Origin: a virus
Length of the DNA stretch: 24,889 bases
Reading direction: 5' to 3' (one strand)
IMG/VR virus record: IMGVR_UViG_3300031857_001288
Span: 1-24,889 of that record
Shown here in pieces: positions 5,588 to 20,400 of the stretch (positions are counted from its first letter, which is position 1; the number at the start of each line of letters is the position of its first letter). The translations under genes were made by a program, and so were the position numbers. The notes below the pieces were generated by a model that did no database searches, was not told the DNA's origin, and saw only the letters and a list, made by a program, of their open reading frames with translations.

Positions 5588-6148
5588 ATGACAACACTCG
5601 TGGGTATCCAAGGCTCAGACTTCTTGGTAATGGCAGCCGATTCACAAATCACTGACGGTGATCAACGCATCATCTCGGTAGAGACACCCAAGATAGTATC
5701 AACGGGTAAGTATCTACTGGGTTTAACTGGTGACTCACGTCCAGGTGACATCCTTGCCTATGCGTGGAAGCCACCGCTCTATCGTGGTGAAGACCCAACC
5801 CGCTTTATGGGTAGCAGAGTACTGCCTAGTATCTCAGCTGCATTCAAAGAGGGTAACTATGAGGTCGATAACAAGGAGATGAACTTCTCGTTCTTGATAG
5901 GTTTCAACGGCAATATCTTTTCTATCGGTGGTGACCTATCGTTTAACACATCTGAGCGTGGACTATTCTCGGCAGGCTCAGGTGGGAATTATGCCCTTGG
6001 GTACTTGTATTCCTTGGAACCTAGGTCTTACAATAAAGTATTAACAGCAAGTGTGGTAGCTGAGAAAGCGGTCAGGATTTCATCCTTACTGGATATCAAT
6101 ACACACCCACCAATTCAGGTAGTAGCACAGACAAGGAATGATAAATGA
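5588..6148 (+). CDS. Proteasome-beta/HslV-like Ntn hydrolase (peptidase T1 type)
   Basis: 186 aa. The N-terminus reads MTTLVGIQGS. Removing Met would expose Thr2 as the catalytic Thr1 of the T1 peptidase family, without a propeptide, as in HslV. Asp18 of MAADSQIT then falls exactly on family position 17. Lys35 (ETPKIV) is within one residue of family Lys33, followed by a Gly turn (LLGLTGD). The later segment FSAGSGGNYALGYL matches the family GSGGNYA signature near the active site. Length is that of HslV/beta subunits. No ATPase partner (HslU, Mpa/ARC) is seen, so it may act alone, with host ATPases, or in remodelling host or phage proteins. It heads the replication operon. The next gene overlaps by ATGA. 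Confidence 0.88.
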   Translation: MTTLVGIQGSDFLVMAADSQITDGDQRIISVETPKIVSTGKYLLGLTGDSRPGDILAYAWKPPLYRGEDPTRFMGSRVLPSISAAFKEGNYEVDNKEMNFSFLIGFNGNIFSIGGDLSFNTSERGLFSAGSGGNYALGYLYSLEPRSYNKVLTASVVAEKAVRISSLLDINTHPPIQVVAQTRNDK

Positions 6149-10457: not shown

Positions 10458-10744
10458 TAGATCATCTAGCGGTAGTTGGATACCGTGCAGGTGGTGTGTC
10501 CACCGAGGACTTAACATCTTTCATTGAATCATTTGCTTCACTGCGTGCTAACAGAGTCAAGGGCGTAGGCCACGACCAGTACGCTATAGCACAGGGGCAG
10601 AAGTTCGAGTCCTTTACTACCTCAGATACCATCAGAGAATTGATTGAAGAGCTAGCAGATGCTAGTAATTACATAGACTTCCTCGCTATCAAGCTGCTGA
10701 ACATACAGCACACTATAGATTTGGTGCTACCTGACTGTGACTGA
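10436..10744 (+). CDS. Small helical protein, possible MazG-like fold
   Basis: 102 aa from ATG 10436, with AAGGAG eleven bases upstream. The frame is open further upstream to ATG 10355, but that would overlap the 38-aa ORF completely. Its C-terminal helix RELIEELADASNYIDFLAIKL carries a Glu-x3-Glu-Glu-x2-Asp pattern like one metal-binding helix of all-alpha NTP pyrophosphatases. The second pattern of that family is not evident. Middle words include GYRAGGVSTEDL and HDQYAIAQGQKFESF. Treat the enzymatic idea as weak. Confidence 0.7.
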   Translation: MSNSNPLVDHLAVVGYRAGGVSTEDLTSFIESFASLRANRVKGVGHDQYAIAQGQKFESFTTSDTIRELIEELADASNYIDFLAIKLLNIQHTIDLVLPDCD

Positions 10745-11369
10745 ACTGCACAAGAACATCTATGACATCGTATACACCGTAGCGCAGACCACTTACCGCA
10801 GGTTTGGTAACTTTGTAGAGCGTGATGATATCAAGCAGGAGTGTGTCAAGTGGGCGCTTACTCGCGTTGATTATATCAACGAGCAGTTATCAGAGCCGGA
10901 AACTAAGAAGCGCCAGCATAACGAGCACCGTGTAGCGTGGCAGATGCTGCGTGTAGCAGAGCGATACGCACGCAAGGAGAAGGCAGTCAAGTCTGGCTAT
11001 CACATCACAGATGAGGCCTACTACGAGGGAGCTACGCTCACTCAGCTGTTGCCCTTCGTCATTGCATCAGTACTCGACGGTACTGTACTAGAGCAGGCAC
11101 AAGAGATGATCCGTGACGGTCAACCTAAAGGCTCATCATCTCCAGCAGAGGGTGGCAACCTGCTTGCAGTACTCATTGATATCAAGAAGGCTTACCTTGA
11201 GTTAGATGTTAACTCACAGCAGGTACTTACCCTGCGCTATCACGAGAACTTTACCTTAGCTCAGATAGGTGGCGTACTTGGTTGTGCTACCAGTACAGCA
11301 GAGCGCAGGTGCTTAGGTGCAGTGCGTAAGCTACAAGATGAACTCGGTGGGATAAGTCCATACCGGTGA
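10737..11369 (+). CDS. Sigma-70-like/helix-turn-helix transcription factor
   Basis: 210 aa from GTG 10737, overlapping the previous gene by 8 bases. Near the N-terminus ERDDIKQECVKWAL resembles the sigma region 2 helix (DDIxQE). The C-terminus has a clear region-4-type helix-turn-helix: LTLRYHENFTLAQIGGVLGCATSTAERRCLGAVRKLQ. The long middle is not typical of sigma-70 and has a Ser/Gly-rich linker. It could direct phage promoters, for example those ahead of terminase, or act as an accessory regulator. Confidence in the HTH is high, in true sigma activity moderate. Confidence 0.8.
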   Translation: MTELHKNIYDIVYTVAQTTYRRFGNFVERDDIKQECVKWALTRVDYINEQLSEPETKKRQHNEHRVAWQMLRVAERYARKEKAVKSGYHITDEAYYEGATLTQLLPFVIASVLDGTVLEQAQEMIRDGQPKGSSSPAEGGNLLAVLIDIKKAYLELDVNSQQVLTLRYHENFTLAQIGGVLGCATSTAERRCLGAVRKLQDELGGISPYR

Positions 11370-17909: not shown

Positions 17910-17952
17910 GGTCTGCCGGATACAGAGAAAGCCCTGCGATTCTTTCCAATAC

Positions 17953-17996
17953 TTATCCACAGCCTTATCCCCAACTGTGGACAGCCCTGTGGACAG
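17953..17996. other. DnaA-box cluster, candidate replication origin
   Basis: TTATCCACA (17953, perfect bacterial consensus) and TTATCCCCA (17965) face one way. TGTGGACAG at 17976 and 17988 (reverse of CTGTCCACA, one base from the actinobacterial TTGTCCACA) face the other. Adjacent boxes are 11-12 bases apart, about one helical turn. An A/T-rich stretch (about 18074-18094) follows and could be the unwinding element. The site lies in the largest gene-free region between the divergent operons. The arrangement resembles a small oriC. Confidence 0.65.
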
Positions 17997-18136: not shown

Positions 18137-18152
18137 TGTGACTAACGTCACA
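18137..18152. promoter_or_regulatory. TGTGAC-TAAC-GTCACA palindrome
   Basis: A perfect 6-bp inverted repeat of operator size. It is itself bracketed by TTTGCTAA (18085-18092) and TTAGCAAA (18153-18160). A likely protein-binding site, protein unknown. Confidence 0.5.
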
Positions 18153-18346
18153 TTAGCAAAACGGGAATTGGTCTAAATTTCCTGCCTTATATATAGTAGG
18201 GGAGTAAAGCGGGGAATGTTCCGGTTTACGAGCTGTACGCTTCGGGTGGAACCCTTCGCGTAGCCCCCTAGGGCGAAGCGATCAGTACCACTAAATACGG
18301 GATAATTCTATTCAGTATTGAATCTCATTATGTGAGACAATCAGCT

Positions 18347-18355
18347 TGGTATAAA
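18347..18355 (+). promoter_or_regulatory. Extended -10 promoter candidate P1 for late genes
   Basis: TGGTATAAA within CTTGGTATAAA. The same CTTGGTATAA core recurs 91 bases downstream. No good -35. Confidence 0.45.
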
Positions 18356-18437
18356 ACTCATACTGGGTACATTAGAAATGTACCTGTAGATGAATCTTCA
18401 TAACCTACTGGGTAGGTTCTTAAATTCATCCTCAACT

Positions 18438-18446
18438 TGGTATAAG
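18438..18446 (+). promoter_or_regulatory. Extended -10 promoter candidate P2 for late genes
   Basis: TGGTATAAG within ACTTGGTATAAGG, about 90 bases before the terminase start. A transcript would begin near 18453 and carry the GATGAAC/GTTCATC hairpin in its leader. Confidence 0.45.
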
Positions 18447-18537
18447 GAATCTGTGATTCCGGCCCGTCTATTCCGGCGGATGAACACAGTTCATCTAGCA
18501 GACGCTACCGCGTCAGCCCTTTATTTTAGGAGATTAC

Positions 18538-20400
18538 GTGGCTGATAACTCAGCAGATATAGCCAAGCGTATTATCCTTGGATGTGTAGCAGAAGGTATG
18601 ACTATCGACGCGGCCTGTGGCAGCGCCGGTAAGTCCATCAAGACCTACGAGTACTACCGTCGCACCGATAAGATATTTGCAGATAAGATAGATCGAACCC
18701 GCCTCGGCCTGAAGGAGAAGTCCTTCGCATCCGGCGATGTTCACGATATCGACTTCGTGGAGTTCCGCCAGAAGTTTTTGCACTCTAAGACCTTTGCTCA
18801 CCAGAAGAACCTTATAGATGTGATTGAAGGGCGTGAACCTTCTTGGTTCCACCCCAGTATGAAATATGAGCCAGGACTTGCCTCAAACCGCGTCCTGATA
18901 AATATTCCGCCAAACCACGCCAAGTCGATTACGGTCACCGTCGACTACGTTACCTGGCAGGTAGCACGTAACCCTAACTTCCGAGTACTGATAGTCTCAC
19001 AGACACAGCAACTCGCAGCAGACTTTCTCTACGCCATCAAGCAGCGACTAACGCATCCGATGTATGCAGACCTCCAGAGCGCTTATGCAGCTGGCGTAGG
19101 GTTTAACTCTAAGACGGCCTCTTGGCAGGCAACCCGCGTCACCTTCGGTGATGAACTTCGTGAGTCTTCCGAAAAAGACCCGAACATTGAAGCCGTCGGT
19201 ATTGGCGGTCAGATTTACGGTAAGCGTGCCGATATGATTATTGTCGATGACGCCGTTACTCTCAAGAACGCTAATGAGTTTGAGAAGCAAATCCGGTGGT
19301 TAACCCAAGACGTGCGTTCCCGTCTTAACCCTACCGGTAAGTTAATTATTATTGGTACACGAGTAGCCTCGGTAGACCTATACCGCGAACTTCGCTCTGA
19401 GGATAGATACCCAGGCGGCCTTGTCCCTTGGAAGTATCTAGCGATGCCAGCCCTGTTAGACGCAGATGAAGACCCCGACAAGTGGGTTACTCTTTGGCCC
19501 GCCTCAGATGCACCATTTGATGGACAGGCAGAATCTGATAAGAACGATGACGGTCTATACCCACGTTGGTCTGGTCGTAACCTTTACAACGAACGTCAAG
19601 CGATGGATGCTAGTACCTGGGCTTTGGTCTACCAGCAGCAGGATGTATCTGAGAACGCTGCCTTTGACCCCGTATGTGTAAAAGGCTCCATTGATGGAAT
19701 GCGTAAGGCGGGCAACTTAGTTGCAGGCCACCCAGGACATCCACGAGACTTAAACGGCTTTACCTACATCTGTGGGCTAGACCCTGCGATGATTGGCGAT
19801 ACCGCAGCTATCTGTTACGCCATTGATAGATCAACGAGCAAGAGGTACATAGTAGATGCTATCAAGATTAGCCGTCCGTCTCCAGCCGATATACGTAATC
19901 TTATTTTTGATTGGACATCCCTATACTCACCGTCCGAATGGATTGTCGAAAAGAACGCCTTCCAATCCTTCTTAACGCAGGACGAAGGCATCCGTATGCA
20001 CCTAGCATCACGCGGCGTGCAGTTTAAGGAACACCATACCGGCTCTAATAAATGGGATGCCGGTTTCGGTGTGGCATCTATGTCTACCCTCTTTGGTACT
20101 AAGCAGTTTGATGGTAAGCACCATAGAGATAACCTGATACACCTTCCATCAGATCAGACCGAGAACATTAAGGCTCTGATAGAGCAGTTGATTACCTGGA
20201 CTCCAACGACTAAGGGTAAGACCGATATGGTGATGGCACTATGGTTCTGTGAAATCCGAGCACGTGAGATGCTCAACTACGGCAAGTATGCCACCCACCA
20301 TATGAAAAACCCTTTCCTCTCTCGTCAAGAGATAGGCAAAAGAACAGTGATTAACCTAGAAGAAGCATTCGCAGAGCAAAACAAAATCAGAGTCATATAG
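18538..20400 (+). CDS. Terminase large subunit
   Basis: 620 aa from GTG 18538, with TAGGAG five bases upstream. The first 60 residues look like a helix-turn-helix DNA-binding domain (GMTIDAACGSAGKSIKTYEYY), a role usually held by the small subunit, which is not seen here. The ATPase has Walker A IPPNHAKS (123-130) and Walker B MIIVDD (233-238). The RNase-H-like nuclease begins at ICGLDPA (Asp415) with later acidic residues. It would cut and pump phage DNA into the procapsid through the portal encoded two genes downstream. It opens the late operon. Confidence 0.96.
   Translation: MADNSADIAKRIILGCVAEGMTIDAACGSAGKSIKTYEYYRRTDKIFADKIDRTRLGLKEKSFASGDVHDIDFVEFRQKFLHSKTFAHQKNLIDVIEGREPSWFHPSMKYEPGLASNRVLINIPPNHAKSITVTVDYVTWQVARNPNFRVLIVSQTQQLAADFLYAIKQRLTHPMYADLQSAYAAGVGFNSKTASWQATRVTFGDELRESSEKDPNIEAVGIGGQIYGKRADMIIVDDAVTLKNANEFEKQIRWLTQDVRSRLNPTGKLIIIGTRVASVDLYRELRSEDRYPGGLVPWKYLAMPALLDADEDPDKWVTLWPASDAPFDGQAESDKNDDGLYPRWSGRNLYNERQAMDASTWALVYQQQDVSENAAFDPVCVKGSIDGMRKAGNLVAGHPGHPRDLNGFTYICGLDPAMIGDTAAICYAIDRSTSKRYIVDAIKISRPSPADIRNLIFDWTSLYSPSEWIVEKNAFQSFLTQDEGIRMHLASRGVQFKEHHTGSNKWDAGFGVASMSTLFGTKQFDGKHHRDNLIHLPSDQTENIKALIEQLITWTPTTKGKTDMVMALWFCEIRAREMLNYGKYATHHMKNPFLSRQEIGKRTVINLEEAFAEQNKIRVI

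Follow-up and report, generated by a model that had tools for sequence, protein, structure and literature searches.

A conserved RNA fold, which occupies a fixed place at a promoter and is present in one copy per genome, heads the late operon of a large group of uncultivated freshwater actinobacterial phages, and constitutes a previously undescribed RNA family that is absent from Rfam. The explanation that we favour, at about even confidence, is that the hairpins at 18254-18495 of the virus record analysed here (the ‘window’, which comprises all 24,889 bases of that record) form the 3' part of this conserved leader RNA, and that this RNA would act in cis, on transcription of the late operon. 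In more general terms, the leader probably helps to control late transcription, and is probably not the DNA-packaging site.

On one side of the hairpins is a block of small genes that runs leftward, and on the other is terL (18538-20400, + strand, assigned from its open reading frame and by tblastn), which encodes the large terminase, opens the late operon in this phage and has its ribosome-binding site, AGGAG, at 18528-18532 (+ strand). By tblastn, terL is 42-43% identical to annotated Streptomyces phage terminases and 47% identical to the terminases of the cultured Planktophila phages E7 and F5 (PMC10202952), and these resemblances make a freshwater actinobacterium the most likely host. The record also encodes a WhiB protein, a proteasome-subunit-like protein (5588-6148; Pfam PF00227, E = 4.8e-6) and a sigma-70 region-4 protein (10737-11369), the last of which is a candidate factor for the late promoter.

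The preliminary description of this DNA had reported a dense run of seven inverted repeats in front of the terminase gene. A strict scan (Watson-Crick pairs only, stems of at least 5 bp, loops of 3-8 nt, no overlaps) returned five perfect hairpins in the 242 nt from 18254 to 18495, at 18323-18337, 18366-18384 (8 bp), 18402-18418 (7 bp), 18446-18460 and 18479-18495 (7 bp), with 33 stem bp in all; the number rises to the reported seven with the addition of an enclosing stem at 18389-18430 and a 4-bp hairpin at 18263-18274. Dinucleotide shuffles of the same stretch, which had been proposed as a check, do not give a similar density: 1000 shuffles averaged 1.2 hairpins and 6.3 stem bp, five of them reached five hairpins and none reached 33 stem bp. 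The stretch ranks first in hairpin density among 204 windows across the record, and the folding energy of 18230-18540 is low (minimum free energy z = -4.0 on either strand), while that of the 5' leader core alone is ordinary (z about -0.5). The element in fact extends beyond the stretch first described, beginning at about 18199 and stopping near the ribosome-binding site, at about 18528.

A search with terL gave 80 related IMG/VR loci, to which pattern scans added more, and the leader is present in about 150 distinct IMG/VR relatives. In 187 loci it precedes terL on the same strand, at a distance of 187-795 nt. Fifteen of 16 long records carry a single copy, and the contig of the sixteenth ends inside the leader; no second copies were found elsewhere in the phage, and the idea of an antiterminator serving several operons through additional leader copies was dropped for that reason. 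The promoter pattern alone retrieved 20 new loci; two of these break off before 50 nt, and the leader was matched in all 18 that have enough downstream sequence. Several genomes carry tRNA-Arg genes or small open reading frames between leader and terL (a tRNA-Arg(acg) gene in L065, L070, L075, L077 and L080). Given the fixed promoter offset, the varying distance to terL and these intervening genes, the leader is tied to the start of the transcript and not to the terL start codon.

In the window the -10 region of this late promoter is TTATATATAGTA (18187-18198, + strand), which is conserved in related loci and places the inferred transcription start at about 18199. A CRP/GlxR-like palindrome, TGTGACTAACGTCACA, lies upstream (18137-18152, + strand), and the same order is found before terL in the relatives: CRP-like palindrome, promoter TTATATAnAGTA and then, directly, the structured leader. 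The palindrome is present in 140 of 150 distinct upstream sequences, nearly always with its centre 42-43 or 57-58 nt upstream of the -10 box (two distances that differ by about 16 nt), an arrangement suggesting that a host CRP-type regulator may control the late genes of the phage.

The leader core is 115-185 nt long and contains up to eight helices. Most relatives have a full ‘B’ type, in which P1 at the 5' end, H2 and H3 (with the loop CCUA) are followed by a long-range helix, P4, that encloses P5 and P6, and then by UUUUAGU, GGGAUAG and P7; P5 contains the near-invariant UUACCCCUC..CGCUGURGCU..UCGGG. The window carries a reduced ‘A’ type without P4-P6, matched by covariance model R1 at 18199-18312 (E = 8e-5, 27.4 bits). 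Its elements, all on the + strand, are P1, the 5'-terminal hairpin (18199-18233; GTAAA..TTTAC, inner CGG/CCG), which is 100% paired with two double-changed pairs; H2 (18236-18262; TACGC..GCGTA, inner GGG/CCC), also 100% paired and nearly invariant within the A type; H3 (18263-18274; GCCC-CCTA-GGGC), which across the family includes a variable pair that is GC in 49 cases, CG in 26 and UA in 13; P7 (18310-18323; ATTCA-GTAT-TGAAT), with two pairs changed on both sides; and P8 (18323-18337; TCTCA..TGAGA), identified by the hairpin scan and kept in A-type relatives. Because relatives of the L026 type combine an A-like H2 with a B-like P5, comparison of the two types suggests that the A type may have arisen by loss of P4-P6. 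In L018 (3376-3399), L022, L071 and L242-L248 P7 is adjoined by a separate insertion, some 75-80 nt in length, that forms stems of its own (..ACGTCCAAACAAAG..CTTTGTT..); its inner stem varies, and the L018 copy has no Rfam match.

The covariance model was built from 16 sequences with a hand-derived structure, since RNAalifold returned almost no structure from mixed alignments, owing to insertions and deletions between the subtypes. It matched once each in 96 of 100 sources. Over 95 distinct rows, 87.4% of cells are paired, and in 23 of the 32 model pairs both partners change; covariation scores 0.262, as against 0.104±0.005 for shuffled alignments (none of 500 reached it) and 0.03-0.06 for slid ones, in an alignment that leans towards the model because it was fitted to it. 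Independently of that model, in a sequence-only MAFFT alignment the strongest covarying pair is the lone G-C/C-G pair of P5. Within the A type itself (24 sequences) 99.3% of cells are paired and four pairs, in P1 and P7, are double-changed, a compensation that lends modest support to the fold. Two further pairings, one a CCCC/GGGG pairing between the start of the leader and UUACCCCUC and the other between H3 and the downstream boxes described below, showed no covariation by eye and were dropped. The alignment of relatives that had been suggested as a check thus finds the stems kept by compensatory changes, and together with the conservation supports the earlier proposal of a structured regulatory RNA. 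That the hairpins are chance palindromes of a noncoding stretch, as the unremarkable folding energy of the 5' core by itself might be taken to indicate, is a reading to which we give practically no credence: it is refuted by a hairpin density above that of all 1000 shuffles and by compensatory changes above every shuffled and slid control.

Hairpins come and go on the 3' side of the core from one relative to another. The two interspersed copies of a short core sequence noted previously are present as boxes, both CTTGGTATAA, at 18345-18354 and 18436-18445 (+ strand). Such a pair is found throughout the family in variable form (for example CCTAGTATAA, CCAGGTATAA and GCCGGTATAA in other genomes), its members being alike within a genome and not always identical (as in L241), with a spacing of 16-28 nt in the family and 91 nt in the window; as operators, which they may conceivably be, the boxes would be neither evenly spaced nor uniform. 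Between the boxes of the window lies an insertion, 18366-18430, which is absent from L006, L210 and L217. It consists of the hairpin GGTACATT-AGA-AATGTACC (18366-18384, + strand, from the hairpin scan), whose 8-bp stem shows a compensatory T-A to C-G change in L005, and of the nested hairpins GATGAAT[..AACCTAC-TGG-GTAGGTT..]ATTCATC (18389-18430, + strand, from folding and the hairpin scan). After the second box comes GGAATC-TGT-GATTCC (18446-18460, + strand, again from the scan), and similar hairpins follow the boxes in L021, L030, L066 and L242. A two-hairpin cassette, GATGAACACAGTTCATC and GACGCTACCGCGTC (18479-18514, + strand), completes the series; its seven variants keep every pair (100%), and three of the pairs have changed on both sides. 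Every inspected stretch with the two cassette patterns lies in this leader; the notion that the cassettes move between sites was set aside, as no such spread was seen.

The position beside terL had also been taken to suit a packaging site (pac or cos), with the leader acting as DNA. Genome ends do appear to lie within about 600 bp, and terL does adjoin the leader. The ends themselves are elsewhere, however: of 88 distinct leader contigs, 16 have their first base 238-283 bp upstream of the -10 box, against a background of about one contig end per 100 bp, and these starts sit outside the hairpins on a separate conserved motif, TGCCG-N8-10-TAGTCnGCCC, which recurs in the 123 distinct upstream sequences listed. 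In the window the corresponding terminus-like motif, TGCCG-N-AGCCC (17914-17934, + strand), is a candidate genome end on the strength of the contig-end cluster and its recurrence upstream of relatives, and is probably the genome terminus, although assembly breaks at sequences shared between strains could be part of the cause of the cluster. The Streptomyces phages WRightOn and Stella (L228/L230 and L229/L231) have deposited direct terminal repeats, of 264 and 263 bp, that likewise stop upstream of a promoter of this kind, at a distance of about 134 bp. With the contig ends lying upstream, and with a fixed promoter arrangement and compensatory changes of a G-U-tolerant pairing that point to RNA, a packaging site at 18254-18495 is rejected as very improbable. 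We would give just as little weight to an RNA associated with a replication origin, the transcript priming or regulating DNA replication from this intergenic region. The region separates divergent gene blocks, and DnaA-box-like repeats (TTATCCACA at 17953, TGTGGACA at 17976 and 17988; unstranded) lie just upstream in the window, where 17953-17995 is possibly an origin of replication, and also in front of 55 of 150 distinct promoters; in most of the relatives with the leader, nevertheless, such boxes are missing.

Under the explanation that we favour, a cis-acting leader of the late operon, transcription would begin at about 18199 at the promoter with its CRP-like site, and the nascent RNA would fold P1, H2 and H3, in most relatives also P4-P6 with UUUUAGU, and then P7/P8. 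So folded, the leader would affect in cis the transcription of the late operon, with its packaging and structural genes, either as an attenuator or, by analogy, by binding and modifying RNA polymerase as HK022 put does; the downstream cassettes would serve as structured spacers, variable in make-up, that separate the core from the ribosome-binding site. Control of transcription is favoured by the place of the element, by its conserved unpaired residues and by the density of terminator-like sites (a stem followed by U residues), of which there are 12 in 16.0 kb of leaders versus nine in 351 kb of same-strand late genes, a roughly 30-fold enrichment that falls mostly at a conserved place near +139. 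An intrinsic terminator has a G+C-rich stem with a U-run immediately after it; in full-type leaders a stem of at least 5 bp directly precedes UUUUA in 49 of 116, and in the window-type core in none; simple attenuation is disfavoured by this absence, by the shortness of the U-run (UUUUA) and by the incomplete stem. A put-like antiterminator would for its part find little to overcome, unless Rho matters, as the late operon is poor in intrinsic terminators (two found in the window region versus 6.5 expected). A bolder form of the proposal, which we hold only tentatively, is that phage RNAs of a new class, spread over this large family of freshwater actinophages, bind RNA polymerase, or else a ligand or protein, and switch on the whole late programme, with a counterpart in cultured Streptomyces phages that is equal in architecture and unrelated in sequence.

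Of comparable standing, and thus well short of probable, is a role in stability or translation, whereby the hairpins would shield the long late mRNA against ribonucleases while leaving the start of terL accessible. The placement of P1 at the extreme 5' end and the length of the operon speak for such a role, and added hairpins that differ in sequence and yet stay paired are expected of a protective structure; generic protection, however, requires neither the near-invariant unpaired UUACCCCUC or CCUA nor invariant residues in loops and internal loops. Less likely still is a discrete, trans-acting RNA of about 140 nt that ends at the stem and UUUU, with terL expressed by read-through, which might be a small RNA of the phage or else resemble the packaging RNA of phi29. 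Conservation of the stem and UUUU near +139 in many relatives, and a location beside terL and near a genome end, are in keeping with such a molecule, but the window's type has neither P4-P6 nor the U-run, the run is short where it exists, and the constant strand and position just before terL are better fitted by a role in cis.

No described element had been recognized in the preliminary description, and the searches bear this out. The whole window and nine relatives gave no match in Rfam 15 at the gathering threshold, and three leader stretches gave no meaningful match at a relaxed E-value. Among 84,980 genomes of bacteria and archaea none contains an exact match to the core pattern, on which ground a bacterial or prophage origin was discarded, and no DNA similarity was found among 50,697 phage records. 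A literature search, whose coverage lay largely outside subscription journals, found no description of the leader.

Among characterized systems, the leader can be compared with HK022 put, a cis-acting folded RNA within the phage transcript, of which putL lies just downstream of a promoter and heads a long operon (PMC9378689). The put RNAs are about 70 nt long with two stems, occur in two copies per genome (putL and putR) in lambdoid early operons, and suppress termination and pausing by binding the zinc-binding domain of the RNA polymerase beta' subunit (PMC9378689). The present leader likewise lies shortly downstream of the promoter of a long phage operon. It differs in its 115-185 nt, its up to eight helices, its single copy and its place in a late operon of actinophages, shows no sequence relation to put, and stands before a strand poor in intrinsic terminators to be overcome. 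It works like a leader RNA and is not a member of put, on account of its size, its stem number and the downstream terminators.

A further comparison is with EAR, found in the eps operons of Bacillus, and with LoaP-type antitermination as a class. EAR too is a leader RNA, some 100 nt long or longer, whose several helices lie close to the beginning of a long operon, and is similar to that extent; EAR, however, sits in bacterial polysaccharide operons, and the leader has no Rfam match of any kind. The pRNA of phi29, which derives from the end of the genome and assembles, through intermolecular loop-loop contacts, into a ring bound to the packaging motor, shares with the leader the character of a structured phage RNA and a possible link to packaging, whereas the leader heads the terL transcript and again has no match in Rfam.

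A parallel in arrangement is provided by Streptomyces phages of the Beephvirinae (WRightOn, Stella, FlowerPower, Manuel and others), in which a genome end, GTGAC-N5-TCACA, a TATATATA promoter, a GGGG start, a hairpin-rich leader and terL follow one another in the same order. Those leaders have other hairpins and conserved blocks of their own (CTCGGGATCATnnCTCCG and AGCCGCACGGCG), and common descent is not established, because the covariance model does not match them; by eye, their main hairpin stays paired despite sequence change. The leader described here adds an RNA family with clear covariation and with gain and loss of domains (P4-P6 and the hairpin cassettes), and, as phages of the window's type recur in freshwater viromes, it bears on how their late genes are switched on, a question that can be put to the test in laboratory strains, since cultured Streptomyces phages have a counterpart in the corresponding position.
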